From the NCBI GenBank assembly GCA_020850755.1, contig JADZEB010000037.1, positions 1-64,000 on the forward strand: a DNA stretch of 64,000 bases, in the 5' to 3' direction. The notes under the pieces were generated by a model. That model made no database searches, was not told the origin of the DNA, and saw nothing but the letters and a program-made list of their open reading frames with translations. The translations under genes and the position numbers were made by a program. Positions within the stretch are counted from its first letter, which is position 1; each line of letters opens with the position of its first letter. This document shows, in pieces, positions 11,209 to 60,400 of this stretch. The DNA comes from Alphaproteobacteria bacterium (lineage in GTDB: Bacteria; Pseudomonadota; Alphaproteobacteria; Acetobacterales; Acetobacteraceae).

Positions 11209-12189
11209 ATGGCCGAGCCGCCCACCCCGCCCCACCGCCCGCCCCCGCCCGCGCGGCCCGATCGGGGCCGCTACGGCCCCTGGCTGGAAGCGCCGCGCCG
11301 GCGCGTGCATGCCGCGCTCGACCGCCTGCACCCCGGGCTCGCCGAGTTCCTGATCTTCGGCTTCAAGCAGGGCTGGGCCTGCCTGTTCGGCGGCGTGATG
11401 GTGGGGCTGATCATCGCCACCAGGCTGGTCTGGCGCCCCGACTGGCCGCTGCACCGCTACGACGCCCTGTTCCTGGCCGCGCTGGCGGTGCAGGGCCTCC
11501 TGCTCGGGCTCCGCCTCGAAACCTGGCGCGAAGCCAAGGTGATCGCGATCTTCCATCTCGTCGGCACGGTGATGGAGATCTTCAAGACCGCGCAGGGCTC
11601 CTGGACCTATCCCGAGGCGGCCTTCTTCCGCATCGGCCATGTGCCGCTGTTCTCGGGCTTCATGTATGCCTGCGTTGGCAGCTACATCGCGCGCGCGACA
11701 CGCATCCTCGATCTGCGCTACAGCCACTATCCGCCGCTCTGGGCGACGGCGCTGCTGGCGGTAGGCATCTATGTCAACTTCTTCACCCACCACTACATGA
11801 CCGACCTGCGCCTCGTCCTGTTCGCGGCGGCGGGGCTGATGTTCCGGCGCACGCGCGTCCATTTCACGGTCGATCGCGCGGTGCGCTGGATGCCGCTCCT
11901 GCTCGGCTTCTTCCTGGTGACCTTCTTCATCTGGATCGCCGAGAATGTCGGCACCCTGACCGGCTCCTGGCTCTATCCGCACCAGGCGGCGGGCGGCTGG
12001 CGGATGGTGACGCTGGGCAAGCTCGGCTCCTGGTATCTCTTGATGATCATCTCCTTCGTGCTGGTCTCGCTGGTGCATCCGCCGCGCCGGCCCGACTGGG
12101 CCGCCGCCGGGGCTGATGCGGAGGCAGAGCGCGCGCCCGCCCGTTACGGCGCCGTCCCGCTCGGCGCCGAGGCGCGCGAGCGCGAGTAG
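11209..12189 (+). CDS. DUF817 family integral membrane protein
   Basis: This 326-residue multi-spanning membrane protein matches the DUF817 (YoaT-like) family. Conserved segments include FLIFGFKQGWACLFG, MEIFKTAQGSWTYPE, the central GHVPLFSGFMYACVGSY and the C-terminal ENVGTLTGSWLYP. Seven to eight hydrophobic segments are visible. The first 35 residues are a Pro/Arg-rich cytoplasmic tail. The ribosome binding site is weak. Biochemical function is unknown; no enzyme motif is obvious beyond conserved His, Tyr and Glu in the membrane part. Confidence 0.88.
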   Translation: MAEPPTPPHRPPPPARPDRGRYGPWLEAPRRRVHAALDRLHPGLAEFLIFGFKQGWACLFGGVMVGLIIATRLVWRPDWPLHRYDALFLAALAVQGLLLGLRLETWREAKVIAIFHLVGTVMEIFKTAQGSWTYPEAAFFRIGHVPLFSGFMYACVGSYIARATRILDLRYSHYPPLWATALLAVGIYVNFFTHHYMTDLRLVLFAAAGLMFRRTRVHFTVDRAVRWMPLLLGFFLVTFFIWIAENVGTLTGSWLYPHQAAGGWRMVTLGKLGSWYLLMIISFVLVSLVHPPRRPDWAAAGADAEAERAPARYGAVPLGAEARERE

Positions 12190-12248
12190 GGACGCGAGCC
12201 GCATCGCGGGGGCTGCGCGGGGCGCCCTGCTCTGCTAAGGGGTGCGCC

Positions 12249-47904: not shown

Positions 47905-48735
47905 CTACCGCCGCCGCAGCCGCCAGTAGAGCGGACACCGGCCCTCGCGCAGCGCCTTGGCCTCGTAGCGCGTCGGTGGCCAGTCCTCCGGGCGCGCCCG
48001 CACGCCCCGCGGCGCGGTCGGGTCGGCCGGGACGAAGTAAGGCTGCGCGGCGGGGTCGAGCACCGCCAGCATCCAGTCCTGGTAGGTCGGATCGTCGCTC
48101 GCCACCCGCAACTCGCCCCCCGGCGCCAGCGCGCGCGCGATCAGCGCCAGGTTGGCCGGGTGGATGAAGCGCCGCTTGGCATGCCGCGCCTTGGGCCAGG
48201 GGTCGGGGAACAGCAGGAACAGCCGGTCGAGCGCGGCTTCCGGCAGCAGCGCGAGCAGGGTGCGCGCATCCTCGGGCCACAGGCGGAGATTGGGCGGCGG
48301 CGGGGCGCTAGCCTCCTCGCCCTCGGGCACGAGGCGGGCCAGCAGCGCGGCGAGCCCGTTCTCGAACACCTCGCAGCCGATCAGGGCGATGTCGGGGTGG
48401 GCGGCGATCTGGGCCAGCGTGTGCTCGCCGGCGCCGAAGCCCACCTCCAGCCACAGGGCGCGCGGGACGAAGGGGGCGAAGGTGGCGAGCGGATCGGCGG
48501 CCTGGGCGCGGGTGAGGCGGAAGCGGGGCAGGGCAAGCTCGATCAGCCGGGCTTGGCGGGCGCGCAGAGGGTGGCCGCGGCGGCGGCCATAGAGGCGCTC
48601 GGGCGGCGGCCGGGCGCCGACCGAGGAGGCGACCGGCGGGGTGGCCGGCGGAGCGGCCGGAGGGGCGGCCACAGGCTTGGCGCCCGACCCGTCCTTGCGG
48701 GGCATACCGGTGCCGGTCTTGCCGGTGCCGGTCAT
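47905..48735 (-). CDS. trmB: tRNA (guanine-N7-)-methyltransferase
   Basis: This 276-residue SAM-dependent enzyme methylates G46 of tRNA. Family motifs are LWLEVGFGAGEHTLAQIAAH for SAM binding, LFLLFPDPWPKARHAKRRF, and a C-terminal TRYEAKALREGRCPLYWR. The first roughly 50 residues are Ala/Pro/Gly-rich and unlike the family. ATG 48733-48735 overlaps, as ATGA, the stop of a short upstream frame. An alternative in-frame start at 48703-48705 (MPRKDG) is possible. Confidence 0.93.
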   Translation of the reverse strand: MTGTGKTGTGMPRKDGSGAKPVAAPPAAPPATPPVASSVGARPPPERLYGRRRGHPLRARQARLIELALPRFRLTRAQAADPLATFAPFVPRALWLEVGFGAGEHTLAQIAAHPDIALIGCEVFENGLAALLARLVPEGEEASAPPPPNLRLWPEDARTLLALLPEAALDRLFLLFPDPWPKARHAKRRFIHPANLALIARALAPGGELRVASDDPTYQDWMLAVLDPAAQPYFVPADPTAPRGVRARPEDWPPTRYEAKALREGRCPLYWRLRRR

Positions 48736-49025
48736 GGCGCACAGCCCAGGCGGGCCAGAGGCGGGCGGGCCAGAGGCGGGCGGGCCAGAGGCGGGCGGGC
48801 CAGAGGCGGGCGGGCCAGAGGCGGGCGGGCCAGAGGCGGGCGGGACGCATGCACGCGGGCGGGGCGGGTCATCGGCATGCGGTGCGGCCGGGCGCCGACC
48901 GAGGAGGCGACCGGGTGCACCGTCGGCGCGGCGGTTGCCGCACGCACCCCGACGGGCGTGGCCTCGCCCTTGCCCGTGCCATTCGCCTTGCCCGCGCCCT
49001 TCGCCTTGTCCTCGTTGCCGGACAT
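48732..49025 (-). CDS. Short leader ORF ahead of trmB
   Basis: This 97-codon frame starts at 49023-49025 with AGGTGGGCG upstream and stops in the ATGA of trmB. It contains VASSVGARP, also present in the trmB N-terminus. The DNA behind it is a perfect 31-bp duplication (48606-48636 equals 48884-48914). Its C-terminal third consists of LARPP pentapeptides from a 15-bp tandem array. It may be a translated coupling leader, or debris of a duplicated trmB 5' end. Confidence 0.35.
   Translation of the reverse strand: MSGNEDKAKGAGKANGTGKGEATPVGVRAATAAPTVHPVASSVGARPHRMPMTRPARVHASRPPLARPPLARPPLARPPLARPPLARPPLARLGCAP
48747..48843. repeat. 15-bp tandem array before trmB
   Basis: Six to seven units of CGGGCGGGCCAGAGG follow each other with almost no variation. 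Read leftwards they encode LARPP pentapeptides in the trmB leader frame. The repeat period is a multiple of three, so copy-number change would keep that frame open. Confidence 0.95.
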
Positions 49026-49203
49026 GTTCACGCCCACCTGTCCGATGATGCCGCCATGCGCCGGGCGCGACCGCGCGGCGCCCCTCCGCGCGCGGCAGCT
49101 CGATCGACGTTCGGATGGGCGGACGCCGGACAAGGCCGTGCGCGCCCCCCACGGCCAGGACCAGGCTTGGCCCGCCGCGCCGGCCGCTGCTCGCGCGCGC
49201 CTG

Positions 49204-49336
49204 TCCGGGCGCCGCTTCCGGTCGGCGTCGATCAGCCGAACCGGGATCGCGCCCGCGAAGCCTGATGCTCGCGGCCAAGCCTGCTCCGCCCAGGTGGAAC
49301 CAGGCCGCGGTTCCACCCGGCCCGATGCTGCCCTAG
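49204..49336 (+). repeat. CTAG-bounded two-hairpin repeat, copy 3 (diverged)
   Basis: This diverged copy keeps the overall layout: GTCGGCGTCGATCAGCCGAAC in the left half, GGTGGAACCAGGCCGCGGTTC in the right hairpin, and GATGCTGCCCTAG at the end. The initial CTAG is lost. The final CTAG (49333-49336) contains the metK stop codon on the minus strand. The gap 49026-49203 to its left shows no other recognisable feature. Confidence 0.85.
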
Positions 49337-50526
49337 CGCCCGAACGCGCCCTTGAGCGCGGCCACGAGGTCGGTCTGCTCCCAGCTGAAGGTGCCCTTGG
49401 CGCTGTCCGGCTCGCGGCCGAAATGGCCATAGGCCGAGGTCGGCACATAGATCGCGCGGTTGAGCTTGAGATGGGTGCGGATGCCGCGCGGCGACAGGCT
49501 CATCAGGTCGCGCAGCGTGCGCTCGAGCTTGACCTCGTCCACCTCGCGGCCGGTGCCGTGCAGATCGACATAGACCGAGACCGGCTGGGCCACGCCGATC
49601 GCATAGGCGACCTGGATGGTGCAACGCTCGGCCAGGCCGGCGGCGACCACGTTCTTGGCGAGGTAGCGGCAGGCATAGGCGGCCGAGCGATCGACCTTGG
49701 TCGGGTCCTTGCCCGAGAAGGCGCCGCCGCCATGGAAGGCCGCGCCGCCATAGGTATCGACGATGATCTTGCGCCCCGTCAGGCCGGTATCGCCGTCGGG
49801 GCCGCCGATCTCGAACTTGCCGGTCGGGTTGACGTAGAACTTCTCGTCCTTGCACATCCAGCCCTCGGGCAGGGCCGCCTTGACGATCGGGTGCAGGAGC
49901 GCCTTGATGCGGCCCTGGTCCATGCCCGGCACATGCTGGGTGGAAACGACGATCGCATCGGCCCCGACCGGGCGGCCATCGACATAGCGCAGCGTGACCT
50001 GGCTTTTCGCGTCGGGCAGCAGGCCGGCCACCGACTTGTCGTTCTTGCGGCGCAGTTCCGAGACGCGGCGCAGGATCAGGTGCGCATAGTAGATCGGCGC
50101 CGGCATCAGCGCGCCCGGCACTTCGTTGCAGGCATAGCCGACCATCATGCCCTGGTCGCCCGCGCCCTCGTCCTTGTTGGCGCCGGCATCGACGCCCTGG
50201 GCGATGTCGGCCGACTGGCTGTGCGTGTAGTTCTCGATCTTCAGCGTGCGCCAGTCGAACCCGTCCTGCTCGTAGCCGATGTCCTTCACCGCCATGCGGG
50301 CGAGATGGTTCATCAGGTCCTTGGTCAGGTGGCCCGGGCCGCGGAACTCGCCGGCGATGGTGATCTGCTGGGTGGTGACCAGCGTCTCACAGGCCACGCG
50401 CGCCTCGGGCTCCTCGCCCAGGAACAGGTCCACGATGGTGTCAGAGATCCGGTCGGCCACCTTGTCCGGATGGCCCTCGGAGACGCTTTCGCTCGTGAAA
50501 AGATACTCGCCCTTCGTCCGCAGCAC
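49333..50526 (-). CDS. metK: S-adenosylmethionine synthetase
   Basis: This 397-residue enzyme makes SAM from methionine and ATP. Diagnostic motifs are [20 protein letters not shown] at the start, [12 protein letters not shown] (ATP-binding hexapeptide GAGDQG) and [19 protein letters not shown]. The start is GTG at 50524-50526 with AAGGA about 10 bases upstream. The TAG stop lies in the terminal CTAG of a dispersed repeat. It precedes trmB. I looked for SAM-II and SAM/SAH riboswitch cores upstream and saw none. Confidence 0.97.
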
Positions 50527-50864
50527 GGTGGGGAATCCTTATCCGGAAGGTTGGCGCCGCAAGCCCGGCGCGGGAGATGGACACACTTGGCGCCCGCGGC
50601 GATGGGCCGAAGGCGGTTCGGGGCCGGGCGCGCGCGGCGCTTCCTGTGGCAAGGATTGCCGCGCCGGTCAAGAGCGCAGAGGCCCCGCCCGCTTGCGCCG
50701 GCCAGGCCGGGACGGGAAGGATGGGGCGGGTGCGGACCCTTGGCGGGGGCGCTGCGGCGCGCCGGCCGGGCGCCTTGTCGCAAAGGATGATGGTCGAACC
50801 GTGGCGGAAGGCGGGGCCCCGGATCGGGCCGTCGGCCGGGCCTCGGCACGACCGGGGCGGCCGG

Positions 50865-50980
50865 GAGCGGCGCGGCGCGGGGCCAGGGGGCGGGATGGTC
50901 ATGGCGCGAAATGCGGCGCGGCGCGGGGTCAGGGGGTGGGATGGTCATGGCGCGAAATGCGGCACGGCGCGGGGCCGAGG
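50865..50980. repeat. 46-bp tandem repeat upstream of metK
   Basis: A 46-bp unit containing GGGATGGTCATGGCGCGAAA occurs twice in full with a partial third copy. It lies in the 601-bp gap 50527-51127 between xre and metK. That gap carries no recognised gene and no good promoter that I could assign. Confidence 0.9.
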
Positions 50981-51023
50981 GGGCCGCGCGCCGCGGGATG
51001 CGTCCGTCCGGGACGGATCGTCT

Positions 51024-51120
51024 CAAGCCGGGCCGTTTCAAGCCGGGCCGTTTCAAGCCGGACCGGGTCAGGCCGGGGCGGGTAAGGCCGGGGCGGGTAA
51101 GGCCGGGGCGGGTAAGGCCC
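51024..51120. repeat. 15-bp tandem arrays just after xre
   Basis: Two consecutive 15-bp arrays are visible: about two and a half units of CAAGCCGGGCCGTTT, then about three and a half units of GGCCGGGGCGGGTAA. They end 7 bp from the xre stop codon. Confidence 0.93.
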
Positions 51121-51127
51121 TAGCCGA

Positions 51128-51631
51128 TCAGGCCGGGCCGGGGGTGCCGCCCTCGATTGGCGCCAGGCTCTTGATCAGGTCGAAGACGCGCTTGCGCACC
51201 GCCGGGTCTGTGATCCGGTAGTAGGCGCGCACCAGCTCCAGCGTCTCGCGCCGGTGCAGCGTGTCGTCGCCGAAGCTCTCCACCTGCTCGGCGAAGCCGG
51301 CGGCCTTGCGCACCGGCGGCACGCCATAGGCGGTGGCAAGTGGCTCGGGCATGTCGTCGAAGAAGAAGCTCACCGGCACATCGAGCACGCGGGCGAGGTC
51401 GAACAGGCGGCTGGCGCCGACCCGGTTCACGCCGCGCTCATACTTCTGGACCTGCTGGAAGGTCAGGCCCAGCGCCTCGCCCAGCTTCTCCTGGCTCATG
51501 CCCATAAGAGTGCGGCGCAGCCTTATCCGGCTACCGACATGGACATCGATCGGGCTCGGGCGGTGTTCTTTTTCCGGCGCTTCGGCGCCGGCGCGGACGC
51601 CTTCGGCGTCGTTGGTACTGCTGGTGGCCAT
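51128..51631 (-). CDS. XRE-family transcriptional regulator
   Basis: This 167-residue DNA-binding protein has an N-terminal helix-turn-helix (VGSRIRLRRTLMGMSQEKLG, then GLTFQQVQKYERGVNRVG) at about residues 32-85 and an alpha-helical C-terminal part. It belongs to the alphaproteobacterial regulator group often found between lnt and metK, as here. The start is ATG 51629-51631; a GTG six codons upstream has no ribosome binding site. The target is unknown; SAM/methionine control of metK would be a guess from position. Confidence 0.88.
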   Translation of the reverse strand: MATSSTNDAEGVRAGAEAPEKEHRPSPIDVHVGSRIRLRRTLMGMSQEKLGEALGLTFQQVQKYERGVNRVGASRLFDLARVLDVPVSFFFDDMPEPLATAYGVPPVRKAAGFAEQVESFGDDTLHRRETLELVRAYYRITDPAVRKRVFDLIKSLAPIEGGTPGPA

Positions 51632-51749
51632 CAAGGCTCGAAATCCCACACGATCGGCGTGCCCGACTGGCCGGGCACATTGCGGCAGCGTTGGCGAACG
51701 TTTTCACCGTCAGCCGGTCGCTACTCGTCCTGAGTTAGCGTTGCAGAAA

Positions 51750-51777
51750 CCTATACGAGTGCACCCAAGCACGTCAA
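51750..51777 (-). promoter_or_regulatory. Promoter of the xre gene
   Basis: On the minus strand TTGACG (51772-51777) and TATAGG (51750-51755) are 16 bp apart, in the most AT-rich stretch of this part of the window. Transcription would start near 51743, giving a leader of about 110 nt. A second candidate TTGACA lies farther upstream at about 51819-51824. Confidence 0.65.
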
Positions 51778-51866
51778 CCGATTGGTGTAGTGGTTTACAA
51801 TTCGCGTCTGAATATGTGCGTGTCAACATCCACAATGTTAGAGCGTCTCAAATTCAGAAAGTTCGT

Positions 51867-53525
51867 TTAATGACTTGATCCAAGCGGTATCCGGCGCCGC
51901 CCGAGCCAAAGCCCAAGGCCGTAGACCAGACCCGCCAGCAGGAGAGGAATCCATGTCCCCCATTGCGCGAAGAGGGTGGGGGGCAGTGCGCCCGGCAGGG
52001 GAGCCTCGACCACGCCGGTCTGGTTGAGGCCGAGACTCGCCACCACGCGCCCGCGCGCGTCGAACACGGCCGAGATGCCGGTATTTGCGGCGCGCGCCAT
52101 CGGCAGCCCCTCCTCGACCGCACGCAGACGCGCCGCCGCGAGATGCTGGTAGGGGCCCGAGGAGGTGCCGAACCAGGCATCGTTGGTGACATTGACGATC
52201 CAGCCCGGCCGTTCGGCCCGGCTCACCACCGCGCCGGGGAAGATCGCCTCGTAGCAGATCAGCGCCGAGAAGGGCGGCAGGCCGGGCACGCGCAGCGTCT
52301 CCTGGCCCGGTCCGGCGCTGAAATCGAGCCCGCCGCGCACGATCGTGCCGAAGGGCAGAAGCCAGCGCAGCGGCACATACTCGCCGAACGGCACGAGGTG
52401 GGACTTGTCGTAGCGGGCCCGTATCTCGCCTGCCCGGTCGATCGCATAGAGGCTATTCCAGAGCTGGATGCGCGGATTGCCGCCCGGATTGCCGCCCGGA
52501 TTGCCGCCCGGATTGCTGGCCGGATTGCTGGCCGGCTCGCGCTCGGCCACCCGCACCGAGCCGGCGAGCAGCACGGCGCGCTCAGGCAGGGCCTGGGCGG
52601 CGAGCGCGCGCGCCTGCGGCACGGTCTCGAGCGGATAGGGCGAGGCGGTTTCCGGCCAGATCACGGCCAGGAGCGCGCCCTCGGGCGGGGTGCTGCCGGC
52701 CTGGGTCAGCATCAGGTGGCGGCGGAAATTGCGCAGCCGCACCTCGTCTTCCCATTTCTGCTCCTGCGGCACGTTGCCCTGCACCAGCCGCAGGACGGGG
52801 CCGGGCGGCTCGGGTTCCTCGGGCCAGAGGCGGGCAAGGCCGATGCCGAGCCCGGCGAGCAGGATCGCGCCGGCGCAGGCAGCGAGGCGGCGGGCGGAGG
52901 CGGGCGGCGCCTGCTCCGGCGTCTGGTCTGGTGCCGGGGCCACCAGCAATGCGGGCAGCCCGGCCAGGATCATGGTCGCGAGCGACAGGCCGTAGGCGCC
53001 GACCAGTGCCGCACCTTGCAGCGGCAAGGCGTCGAAGGCCCAGACGGTGCCGATCAGGTTCCAGGGAAAGCCGGTGAACAGGACGCCGCGCAGCATCTCG
53101 CCCAGCGTCCAGGCCCCGGCCAGCGCCAAGAGGCGCGGCAGGCCGGCCGGGGCCAGCCAGGCGGCAGCCACGCCGGCGGCGAGGAACAGGGCGAGGCCCG
53201 CCGCGATCGCCGGCACCGCGATCGGCACCAGCCAGAAGAAGCGCTCGGCCTCGTGCAGGATGGCGAAGGTGATCCAGTAGAGCCCGGCCAGGAAGAAGCC
53301 GAGCCCGAACCAGAAGCCGGTGGCGAAGGCCCCGCGCAGGCTGGTCCGCCCGTCGAGCAGGAACAGGAGGCCCGGCACCGAGAGCCACAGCACCGGCACG
53401 GCGAAGACCGGCGGCAGGGCGAGCGCGGCCAGCGCGCCGAGCCCGAAGCCGGTCGCAGCACCACGCCAGCCGGTGCGGCTGGAAAGATGGCGGCGGGCGC
53501 GGGCGGCGAGGGCGGCGAGGCTCAT
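51867..53525 (-). CDS. lnt: Apolipoprotein N-acyltransferase
   Basis: This 552-residue inner-membrane enzyme adds the third acyl chain to lipoproteins. Hydrophobic helices fill about residues 15-205, followed by a nitrilase-like periplasmic domain. Catalytic elements are visible: VIWPETASPYP (Glu), YDKSHLVPFGEYVP (Lys) and ALICYEAIFP with Cys424. Residues near 330-350 contain NPASNPGGNPGG-type repeats from a 12-bp tandem array. ATG 53523-53525 overlaps the stop of a short duplicated leader frame as ATGA. Confidence 0.95.
   Translation of the reverse strand: MSLAALAARARRHLSSRTGWRGAATGFGLGALAALALPPVFAVPVLWLSVPGLLFLLDGRTSLRGAFATGFWFGLGFFLAGLYWITFAILHEAERFFWLVPIAVPAIAAGLALFLAAGVAAAWLAPAGLPRLLALAGAWTLGEMLRGVLFTGFPWNLIGTVWAFDALPLQGAALVGAYGLSLATMILAGLPALLVAPAPDQTPEQAPPASARRLAACAGAILLAGLGIGLARLWPEEPEPPGPVLRLVQGNVPQEQKWEDEVRLRNFRRHLMLTQAGSTPPEGALLAVIWPETASPYPLETVPQARALAAQALPERAVLLAGSVRVAEREPASNPASNPGGNPGGNPGGNPRIQLWNSLYAIDRAGEIRARYDKSHLVPFGEYVPLRWLLPFGTIVRGGLDFSAGPGQETLRVPGLPPFSALICYEAIFPGAVVSRAERPGWIVNVTNDAWFGTSSGPYQHLAAARLRAVEEGLPMARAANTGISAVFDARGRVVASLGLNQTGVVEAPLPGALPPTLFAQWGTWIPLLLAGLVYGLGLWLGRRRIPLGSSH
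52474..52535. repeat. 12-bp in-frame tandem repeat inside lnt
   Basis: Three units of GGATTGCCGCCC and two of the variant GGATTGCTGGCC encode NPGG/NPAS tetrapeptides in the periplasmic domain of Lnt, between the catalytic Glu and Lys segments. Loss or gain of units keeps the frame. Confidence 0.93.
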
Positions 53526-53755
53526 CGCGCCCGTCCCGTCTGTCGGTCCGGGCCGCGGGCCAGGTCCCGGCCTGCTCCGGCCCGGAGGCGGCGGGCGCCG
53601 TTGCCGGCGCGGGTCACGGGCCGCTTCGCCCACTCATGGTGCCCGCCGGCGCCCCGTGCCAAGGCATCAGGCGTGGGTCCATGCGCCTCTGCGCGCCAGC
53701 CGGAGCGGTGGGCGAGATGGCGGCGGGCGCGGGCGGCGAAGGCGGCGAGGTTCAT
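53522..53755 (-). pseudogene. Duplicated lnt 5' end forming a leader frame
   Basis: The 40 bp at 53716-53755 match the first coding bases of lnt at 53486-53525 with two mismatches, 230 bp apart. The duplicate encodes MNLAAFAARARRHLAHRSGW against MSLAALAARARRHLSSRTGW in Lnt. After about 20 codons the frame loses similarity and stops in the ATGA of the real lnt start. It may be non-functional debris or a translated coupling leader. Confidence 0.4.
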
Positions 53756-54080
53756 GGCCGGCCCTGCCGGGCGCGAAATCGGCGAAATGCCCCGCGCGCG
53801 GCAGCATTCGTGGAGGCCAGGGCTGCGCTGCGGTGCCGTCCGGCGCGGCTGCGATGCTGGCGCGTGCTGCCGATCTGGGCCGCTCGTGGCACGTCTCGTT
53901 CCCTTCGCTCGTTGGCGCGGCAACGCCGCCCTTCGCCGGCGCAGGAGCAAACACGCCAAGCCGTTCCGCCGCAAGGGCGCCGTCGCGGCCCGGCCGCGCC
54001 ACCCGGCCAGGGGCGCATCGGCTGGCCCGGGCGAAACGGGCGCTGTGCCGGGGCGGGCATCGTTCCGGCGGGCGTGACGC
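53756..54080. other. Gap between corC and the lnt leader
   Basis: These 325 bp hold no recognisable gene, terminator or promoter. Several open frames cross it, but their composition looks like GC-rich shadow sequence. Confidence 0.5.
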
Positions 54081-55028
54081 TCAGTCCTCGGCCGGGGCGG
54101 AGGGGCGGGCCGGAGGGCGGGTCAGGCGGAGCCTTCGCACCCGGCGCGGATCGGCATCGAGGATGCGGAACTCGGCGCCCGACGGGTGGGTGATGACCTC
54201 GCCCTTGGTCGGCACCCGGCCGGCCAGCGCCGTGACCAGCCCGGCGACGGTCTCGATGTCGGCGTCGCGCTCCTCGCGCGTGAGGAGCGCGCCGAAACGC
54301 GATTCGAAATCCTCGACCGTCAGCCTTCCGTCGAGATCGGCGGTGCCGTCGATGCGCTCCACCACCAGCGGGCCGCCCACCTCGTCATGCTCGTCGGCGA
54401 TGTCGCCCACGATCTCCTCGACCAGGTCCTCGATCGTCACCAGCCCGTCGATGCCGCCGAACTCGTCCACCACCAGCGCCAGGTGCGTGCGCTTGAGCCG
54501 CATCTCCAGCAGCAGGTCCAGCACCGGCATGGATGGGGCCACGAACAAGGGCTTGCGCAGGATCGCGGTGAGCTTCTCCTGCCCGCCGCGTGCCTGCGCG
54601 GCGATGACGTCCTTGACATGGACGAAGCCTGTCACCTCGTCGAGCGTCTCGCGATAGATCGGCACGCGGCTGTGCGCCTCGCGCGCGAGGAAGCGGATCG
54701 CGGCATCGACCGTGGTGCCTTCCTCCAGCGCGATGATGTCGGTGCGCGGCACCATCGCGTCGAAGGCGCGCACGTTGCGCAGGCGCAGCACGTTGGCGAT
54801 CAGCGCACGCTCATGCGGGTCGATCGGCGAGGGCTCGCCATTGGCGGTGCCGTCGCCGGCCTCTTCGCGCCCCTCGATCAGGTCCTCGATCTGCTCGCGC
54901 AGCTGGTCCTCGGCGGCGCGCGCCCGGCGCACGCCGCGCAGCCGCTCGCGCAGGCGCGCGAGCAGGCCGGGCCTTTCGGCCTCCGCTCCCGGGTTCGAGG
55001 CAAGGGCGGGCGGCGGATCGTTGCTCAT
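54081..55028 (-). CDS. CorC/HlyC-family CBS-domain protein
   Basis: This 315-residue cytosolic protein has a CBS pair (about 85-205; [19 protein letters not shown] and GFVHVKDVI) and a C-terminal CorC/HlyC transporter-associated domain ([14 protein letters not shown] onward). The motif [20 protein letters not shown] is diagnostic. Relatives act in magnesium/cobalt efflux or as adenosine-nucleotide sensors. The start overlaps the ybeY stop by 4 bp (ATGA), and lnt follows after a long gap, the usual alphaproteobacterial order. Confidence 0.93.
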
Positions 55029-58560: not shown

Positions 58561-58800
58561 TCAACCATGATCCGACGACCGGCCCGCCCCGGGTGCGGCG
58601 GCGGCTGCGGCGGCGGGGGAGGCGGGCGAGGCGGCAGCCCCTCCGGCCGGGGCTGCGGGTTTGTCTGTCGGCGGCGCGGGCGCCAGCGACGGCGTGGCCG
58701 CGGCGGGCGCCGGGGCCGGGGCCGGGGCGGGGGCGGGGGCCACGACCGGCAAAGGTCCGGCGGGTCCGAAGGCGATGGTGGCGGCGCCAGCCTCAGCCAT
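58561..58800 (-). CDS. Short Ala/Pro-rich ORF downstream of the acyltransferase
   Basis: This 79-codon frame starts 8 bp before the end of the acyltransferase and is very rich in Ala and Pro. It repeats part of the acyltransferase C-terminus (APPTDKPA against APPTDNPA) in another frame. It could be the older C-terminal tail cut off by a frameshift, or a chance frame. Nothing else is recognised in the gap 58331-58560. Confidence 0.3.
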   Translation of the reverse strand: MAEAGAATIAFGPAGPLPVVAPAPAPAPAPAPAAATPSLAPAPPTDKPAAPAGGAAASPASPAAAAAAAPGAGRSSDHG

Positions 58801-60400
58801 CGCCGGCACCGCGAACCGGGATCGTGGCCGACCGTGCCAGGGACGCCTGTGCCAGGGATGCCTGTGCCAGGGACGCCTGTGCCAGGGATGCGGTGGCGCC
58901 GGCGGGGTTGTCGGTCGGTGGCGCGGGCGACGCTGCCGCGTCGCCGCCCAGCCCGGACCCGGCCCGCTCCGGAACCCCCTGCCCTGCGGCCCCCTGCCCT
59001 GCGGCCCCCTGCCCTGCGGCCCCCTGCCCTGCGGCCCCCTGCCCTGCGCCTGCCGTTTCGGCTCCCGCCTTTTCAGCTCCTCCCTGGTCGGCGCCGGGGG
59101 GCTCCATGCCCGTAGCGGCCGTCGCCTCGGGCCCTGGCCGCGGGGTGGCATCGAGCGGCGCCAGCGGATGGCCCATCCGTGCCGCCGCCGCGCCCTCGGC
59201 CACCACCCGCGACACCGCCTCGGCCAGCGCCTTGCGCGAGGGGAAGGCGGCCGGGTCGATCGGCGCGTGCAGAACGATCGAGGCCCGCATCGAGGCGAAG
59301 CCCAACATGCGCAGGGCGTGGGGGCCGAGATCGACATCGGCATACCAGGCGAACATCGGCGCGAGACGCCGACCCGCCGGCAGCCCGTCGAGCCGGTCAT
59401 AGACGATCGAGACCGGCTGCACCGTGGGCAGGCGCGCGGCCTCGGCCGCGCCGTTCTCGCCTGCCCGTGCCTCGCCTGCCCGTGCCTCGCCTGCCCGTGC
59501 CTCGCCCGCGCGCGCCTCGGCCACCGCCAGGAAGGAGGAGCGGAATGGCAGCACCCGGACATGGTCCGAGGTAGTGCCTTCCGGGAACAGGATCAGGCTG
59601 TCGCCCTGCGCCAGGCGCTGCTCCATCTCGCTGCGCTCGCGCCCCGTGTCCGAGCGCCGGCGCGAGACGAACACGGTGCGCCCGAGCCGCGCCACCGTGC
59701 CCACCAGAGGCCAGCCATTGATCTCTGCCTTGGAGACGAAGTTCGCCTCCAGCACGCCGCCGAGGGCGAGGATGTCGAGATAGCTGGTGTGGTTGGAGAG
59801 ATAGAGCACCGGCCCGCCGCCGGCCGGGCGGCCAACGATGTTGAGCCGGAGCCCGATGATGCGGCAGAGCGTGCGGTGATAGAGCCGGGCGAAGCGGCGC
59901 GGGGGCGTGCCGCCGATCGCCACCAGCACCGCCTGCACCGGTATGCAGAGGAGCGTCCAGAGCGCCGCCACCGGCACGCGCCAGGCGATGCGCAATGCGG
60001 CGCGCAGGCCACGGCCGACGCGCGCCGGCTCGTCCATCGGGCCACCGGGAGCGGCGGCGGCGATGCGTGCGCGCCAATCGAGCTTTCGGTCGGGGCGCAG
60101 GAGGCGCGGCTTGAGCCGGCGCAGGGGCTTGCTGGCGCGCAAAGCCGATATGCCCGCGGCGATCCCGGCGCCCGCTGCGGTGCCTGCGGCGGTGGGGATG
60201 GCGCTGCCGCCTGCGGCGGTGGGGATGGCGCTGCCGCCTGCGGCGGCGGGGATGGCGCTGCCGCCTGCGGCGGCGGGGATGGCGCTGCCGCCTGCGGCGG
60301 CGGTCGGCGGCGTGGCCGTCAGTGCCACGGAGCCCGGCGGCGGGGCGTCCGGGGTGGCGTGAGCCGAATCCGACGGGGAGGGCGGCGCAGCGTCAGGCAT
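58793..60400 (-). CDS. 1-acyl-glycerol-3-phosphate acyltransferase-like protein (PlsC family)
   Basis: This 535-residue protein has a PlsC domain, with the catalytic motif NHTSYLD (His204, Asp209), FVSKAEINGWPLVG and FPEGTTS at 272-278. A hydrophobic segment precedes it (about 135-165). It probably makes phosphatidic acid, or acylates lyso-ornithine lipid, as an OlsA-like partner of the upstream OlsB. The domain is embedded in unusual low-complexity sequence with four tandem-repeat tracts (about 37-72, 295-314, 451-475 and 505-523). ATG 60398-60400 is assumed; the first 120 residues are poorly conserved and the true start may be lower. Confidence 0.85.
   Translation of the reverse strand: MPDAAPPSPSDSAHATPDAPPPGSVALTATPPTAAAGGSAIPAAAGGSAIPAAAGGSAIPTAAGGSAIPTAAGTAAGAGIAAGISALRASKPLRRLKPRLLRPDRKLDWRARIAAAAPGGPMDEPARVGRGLRAALRIAWRVPVAALWTLLCIPVQAVLVAIGGTPPRRFARLYHRTLCRIIGLRLNIVGRPAGGGPVLYLSNHTSYLDILALGGVLEANFVSKAEINGWPLVGTVARLGRTVFVSRRRSDTGRERSEMEQRLAQGDSLILFPEGTTSDHVRVLPFRSSFLAVAEARAGEARAGEARAGEARAGENGAAEAARLPTVQPVSIVYDRLDGLPAGRRLAPMFAWYADVDLGPHALRMLGFASMRASIVLHAPIDPAAFPSRKALAEAVSRVVAEGAAAARMGHPLAPLDATPRPGPEATAATGMEPPGADQGGAEKAGAETAGAGQGAAGQGAAGQGAAGQGAAGQGVPERAGSGLGGDAAASPAPPTDNPAGATASLAQASLAQASLAQASLARSATIPVRGAGDG
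58832..58888. repeat. 15-bp in-frame array (SLAQA) in the acyltransferase gene
   Basis: Four units of TGCCAGGGA(T/C)GCCTG encode SLAQA-type pentapeptides at residues 505-523, near the C-terminus. Confidence 0.95.
58976..59050. repeat. 15-bp in-frame array (GAAGQ) in the acyltransferase gene
   Basis: Five units of CCCTGCCCTGCGGCC, the last slightly altered, encode GAAGQ pentapeptides at residues 451-475. The units are almost error-free, suggesting recent expansion. Confidence 0.95.
59459..59518. repeat. 15-bp in-frame array (EARAG) in the acyltransferase gene
   Basis: Four units of GCCTGCCCGTGCCTC-type sequence encode EARAG at residues 295-314, inside the catalytic domain, between FPEGTTS and the C-terminal half. 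Confidence 0.95.
60185..60292. repeat. 27-bp in-frame array (GGSAIP) in the acyltransferase gene
   Basis: Four units of a 27-bp sequence encode nonapeptides of the form GGSAIP(A/T)AA at residues 37-72. The units differ only at a few positions. Confidence 0.93.

Follow-up and report, generated by a model that had tools for sequence, protein, structure and literature searches.

A partial copy of the lnt start upstream of lnt in an Acetobacteraceae genome, probably left by a short local duplication

In the stretch of DNA analyzed here (64,000 nucleotides, hereafter the window), the beginning of lnt occurs a second time upstream of the gene, and the reading frame opened by this second copy runs into the start codon of lnt itself. 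An earlier note on this DNA had seen the same arrangement at trmB and had suggested a repeated process, such as the tandem duplication of gene starts retained for translational coupling, rather than a single accident. This raises the question of whether the upstream copy is a control element of lnt or an accidental product of duplication.

The repeated lnt start

On the minus strand, lnt opens with ATGAGCCTC, starting at 53525. The copy attached to the gene and the upstream copy (Table 1) form an ungapped alignment of 62 positions that contains 7 mismatches (89%), at a start-to-start spacing of 230. Since 2 of the 7 mismatches lie within the first 41 positions, the earlier observation that approximately the first 40 bp of lnt recur 230 bp upstream with 2 mismatches is confirmed. 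The region is GC-rich and of low complexity, and weak matches to the lnt-start region are found elsewhere in the genome at 41–45 bits, as could be expected if the repeat represented a chance similarity of GC-rich, Ala/Arg-rich sequence. However, the local alignment score of 89 compares with a maximum of 44 among 2000 dinucleotide shuffles (Gumbel P ~2.5e-11), and the match of the upstream copy to the lnt start reaches 82 bits; chance similarity was therefore rejected. A simple duplication introduced during assembly is likewise unlikely, judging from the 7 of 62 positions at which the copies differ. Overall, chance or an assembly error is an extremely improbable source of the repeat.

Table 1. 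Coordinates of the features at the lnt, trmB, and kinase gene loci.
Feature	Position	Strand	Remarks
lnt	51867..53525	-	Apolipoprotein N-acyltransferase, 552 aa; Pfam LNT_N 1.7e-26, CN_hydrolase 2.4e-23
Gene-attached copy of the lnt start	53464..53525	-	lnt bases 1–62 (codons 1–21)
Upstream copy of the lnt start	53694..53755	-	55/62 bases identical
Spacer between the lnt-start copies	53526..53693	no strand	168 bases
Frame opened by the upstream copy	53522..53755	-	77 codons; its stop is the TGA within the lnt-start ATGA; not coding-like
corC (CBS/CorC-type gene)	54081..55028	-	Pfam CBS, CorC_HlyC; 555 bases upstream of the lnt start
Repeat inside trmB (47905-48735)	48606..48636	-	31 bases; begins 99 bases from the called start
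Upstream copy of the trmB repeat	48884..48914	-	Identical; inside frame 48732-49037 (101 codons)
Five short-repeat loci	48606-53767		trmB leader, two tandem arrays after metK, 12-base-type array inside lnt, lnt start
Tandem unit at the kinase gene	L252:12043-12140 and 12141-12238		98 bp, head-to-tail, 95% identical

Both ends of the 62-base repeat are sharp, and one boundary nearly coincides with the start codon. In gapped alignments, the 60 bases flanking each copy were no more similar to each other than shuffles, either before or after the copies (P = 0.64 and 0.54), and the spacer resembled neither the upstream flank nor lnt codons 22–77 beyond shuffles. An extension of the repeat into the spacer or flanks was therefore rejected. 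Furthermore, no tandem unit was found at lnt, as the copies comprise 62 bases at a spacing of 230 with no similarity in the spacer, and no shared breakpoint word was seen in the flanks inspected.

A staggered break or a 168-base inserted element, filled in so as to leave 62 bases on each side, would account for the sharp repeat ends and for a spacer unlike either neighbor. However, a whole-genome search with the lnt-corC intergenic DNA returned the region itself, the lnt start, and one weak match (77%, ~65 bases), with no full copy of the spacer elsewhere, and 62 bases is very long for a target duplication. Flanks of an insertion or of break repair are thus an improbable origin of the copies.

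A gene for lnt is present in 384 of the 397 genomes of the family (this genome included), with the best others approximately 60% identical. The relatives searched all belong to other genera, with no genus-mate among them. They were compared as 83 locus rows from two collections, in which some genomes occur twice; 2 rows lack upstream DNA, leaving 81 testable. This set took in 26 of the 80 loci of one earlier-compared set and left out L080. None of the 81 testable rows from other genera contains an lnt-type repeat (best score 34, compared to 89 here), and the duplication hence appears to be lineage-specific. Many of the closest relatives possess a similar short Lnt N-terminus ending in R-x-GWRA, so that both copies in the window look like true lnt starts. 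L080, which belongs to another Acetobacteraceae MAG and scored up to 94, was rejected as a relative with an lnt-start repeat, since it carries a tandem array of three 57-bp units before lnt (L080:2765-2935) with a sequence unrelated to the lnt start.

The frame ending in the lnt ATGA

The frame opened by the upstream copy indeed has its stop within the lnt-start ATGA, as the earlier note had stated. It could accordingly be read as a translated leader, in which ribosomes terminating in the ATGA would re-initiate on lnt and the copy would set lnt expression. This reading is favored by the overlap of its stop with the lnt start, by the start in register, and by the strict coupling reported at ATGA overlaps for 13 of 14 pairs tested in other species (PMC6728339). 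The pairs described there resemble lnt in that the upstream frame overlaps in ATGA; they differ from it in that the upstream frame of lnt does not look gene-like. With −0.003 per codon, the codon score of this frame lies below the 1st percentile (0.04) of 76-codon gene pieces, and it drops to −0.11 past codon 22. Scored separately, its first 22 codons reach 0.26 per codon and are thereby more coding-like than the first 22 codons of lnt itself (0.06), which may be expected for copied coding DNA. Within the first 20 codons, very few changes separate the copies (dN 0.149, dS 0.067); these are mostly non-synonymous, and the frame shows no evidence of purifying selection. No Pfam domain was found in it at E 0.01. 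A regulatory RNA at this position was also rejected: no Rfam family matched the window between 47500 and 55100 at gathering scores, and the RNA fold was no better than shuffles (z +1.1).

Moreover, frames of this kind are common by chance. Among the 1241 genes called in the first 1.54 Mb of the sample described below, 453 have an NTGA start. Isolated genes, defined by a free upstream stretch of 250 bases or more, number 276; in 22 of them, among which is lnt, the start is NTGA and a frame of 60 or more codons terminates in it. The +1 frame is open for at least 76 codons in 90 of 274. The genome has a GC content of 70%, and the combination of high GC (few stops) with a common A after the start codon makes an open frame ending in the lnt ATGA ordinary in this genome. 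In bacteria generally, A is overrepresented as the fourth coding base (PMC5850271); this fits the ATGA of lnt without a coupled partner but leaves the repeat unexplained. On the minus strand, another open frame of 102 codons (53752-54060) terminates within the ATGA at the start of the upstream copy. Open frames thus follow one another through ATGA overlaps all the way from near corC to lnt, which is probably a by-product of high GC.

The coupled short upstream frame reported for iraD (PMC5574718) is similar to that of lnt in directly preceding the gene. The lnt frame, in contrast, copies the start of its own gene and bears no sign of selection. The proposed retention of the duplicated start for coupling is thus not supported, given a frame without coding signature and with dN above dS, the lack of a counterpart in the relatives tested, all of other genera, and the frequency of NTGA starts that close long frames.

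Copied gene starts in the genome

Further copied starts were searched for in a sample of 2,335,671 bases including the window (2.34 Mb, 52% of the genome), in which 2032 genes were called by codon usage with a gene caller seeded with metK, lnt, and corC, the called starts being approximate. The first 150 bases of each gene were compared to its own 600 upstream bases. At a threshold score of 60, 3 of 1808 testable genes were found: a kinase gene on L252 (164), lnt (89), and trmB (62). In the first 1.54 Mb alone, the partial start copies were those of lnt and, weaker, trmB, and the kinase gene surfaced at 2.34 Mb. Gene starts compared to random upstream DNA reached the threshold in 1 of 9034 cases. 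In the start-register test, 4 of 1883 genes stood out, namely lnt (score 38), the L252 kinase gene (77), and two members of a tandem family on L152. Start-to-start pairs on L152 and L184 were set aside as tandem copies of whole genes. The L152 family consists of three tandem genes (L152:3607-4447) for a small, secreted-looking, glycine-rich protein that is weakly YjbE-like (Pfam E 0.003, below the cut-off). In the loci of relatives, 0 of 443 genes had a start copy, in a set too small for a comparison (P = 1.0).

In the scan for start copies with an ATGA that the earlier note had proposed, here of 52% of the genome, a third case, the kinase gene, came to light, with a start-register score well beyond the shuffled pairings of starts and upstream regions (at most 12, n = 7532). 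However, gene starts were not significantly richer in copies than gene ends compared to their own downstream DNA (3 of 1808 vs 0 of 1797 at the same threshold, P = 0.25), and gene middles compared to the preceding DNA gave a higher count (11 of 1808).

As to trmB, for which an architecture identical to that of lnt had been claimed at an unlinked position, a repeat exists, and the ATGA at the called trmB start is indeed where an upstream frame stops. However, the 31-base repeat begins 99 bases inside the gene, and trmB, judged by this position, is not a duplicated start. The copies are not start-aligned, and the start-register test did not detect them. Nor are the two genes unlinked, since their starts lie only 4.8 kb apart. 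Among 23 relatives, no trmB repeat was found (best score 26).

The kinase gene on L252 follows tsaE (Pfam TsaE 4e-31); it encodes an APH-family kinase (4.9e-31) and precedes a nucleotidyltransferase gene, a pair for which we take the names AmgK and MurU to apply. The 98-bp unit repeated here holds the end of tsaE and the start of the kinase gene and spans their ATGA overlap; its length equals the spacing of 98, the copies being adjacent in tandem. From the first copy, a 33-codon frame results that comprises the kinase N-terminus followed by the TsaE tail residues GALKP and stops within the ATGA at the second start, so that tsaE, the mini-frame, and the kinase gene are successively joined by ATGA. 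Over 30 codons, 2 synonymous and 2 non-synonymous changes distinguish the copies. In six of the relatives closest by lnt (G212, G140, G060, G191, G169, and G325), the start of the kinase match falls within a range from 15 bases upstream to 18 bases downstream of the point where the tsaE match ends, even though the first kinase residue matched is only residue 4–14; the corresponding distance in this genome is 98. These six thus have no room for an extra 98-bp unit. The more distant G308 and G102 have wider gaps between tsaE and the kinase gene, and neither gene was matched in G304, G248, or G065. On L252, a gene start has simply been duplicated in tandem.

Tandem duplication of a short segment between short direct repeats is a known type of mutation. 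The L252 case resembles it in its head-to-tail unit and in the 9-base word CGGGGCGCT, which is present at both breakpoints (in the tsaE end and in kinase codons 28–31), and the duplication probably arose by slippage or recombination between these copies. The lnt case differs from it, with copies 168 bases apart and without a breakpoint word found. The idea of a repeated process is supported by the tandem start duplication at the kinase gene, whereas selection for coupling is not. The like layout of tsaE, mini-frame, and kinase gene could be counted in favor of a translated leader at lnt, but a tandem unit that contains an ATGA overlap yields this layout from its length alone. Similarly, the spacings of both start-register partial copies (98 and 230) are 2 mod 3, as coupling requires. 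This is weak evidence, because a spacing of 0 mod 3 without a stop would read as a longer gene, leaving approximately a 1-in-2 choice for each. Considering also that the frame lacks a coding signal and a counterpart in the other genera, we regard a leader that sets lnt expression as quite unlikely.

Origin of the upstream copy

We consider it likely that the upstream copy is the fossil of a short, lineage-specific segmental duplication and thus accidental rather than a purpose-built control element of lnt. Approximately 62 bases (lnt codons 1–21) would have been duplicated in this lineage and would now lie 168 bases apart, and the copy detached from lnt would have drifted afterward. This origin is in keeping with a genome that occasionally makes small duplications, of which the head-to-tail 98-bp unit at the kinase gene behind tsaE is an example. 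The observed repeats and their boundaries, the absence from the relatives tested, the missing coding signal, and the background frequency of frames of this kind form its basis. The upstream copy would then be functionless, and slippage would be the presumed mechanism at the kinase gene. Counting for a lineage-specific duplication are the likeness of the copies beyond chance and their absence from all 81 testable rows. Counting against a fossil are a spacer that resembles neither flank and the failure to find a tandem unit or, in the flanks inspected, a breakpoint word at lnt, and also a repeat edge that nearly coincides with the start codon although neither drift nor accident would call for this, the coding-like first 22 codons, the 2 mod 3 spacings, and the few changes between the copies.

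A more speculative and, in our view, rather unlikely extension is that a tandem duplication over an ATGA overlap, with a length of 2 mod 3, would automatically create a new mini-frame with the downstream N-terminus, the upstream C-terminus, and ATGA at both ends. The kinase gene would be a fresh instance and lnt possibly an old, decayed one, and the process would constitute a general route for coupled mini-genes in operons. Judging from titles and the openings of abstracts, we found no paper that describes bacterial ATGA-coupled frames arising from the duplication of gene starts. The kinase gene would be a clean example of a one-step mutation that creates such a frame, and the idea that mini-frames are born in this way can be tested by counting across many species. 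When small duplications fall on gene junctions, the short frames left behind resemble regulated leader genes and might be annotated accordingly.

Local duplications of small size are a recurrent feature of this genome and are concentrated around trmB-lnt. A 6-kb stretch from 48.7 kb contains 5 distinct repeat loci, the highest number of all 6-kb stretches in the 2.34-Mb sample. For the window, 12 distinct repeat loci compare with 3.9 predicted from the sample mean (Poisson P ~0.0007, a rough and optimistic value, as the locus had been selected because of its repeats and a few masked-N rows may be counted in the total). Two rows of the repeat table are masked-N artefacts, and the sample total of 142 repeat loci may include such rows. 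Elsewhere in the window, a 27-bp tandem array (60182-60363) lies at the upstream end of a gene called at 58793-60328.
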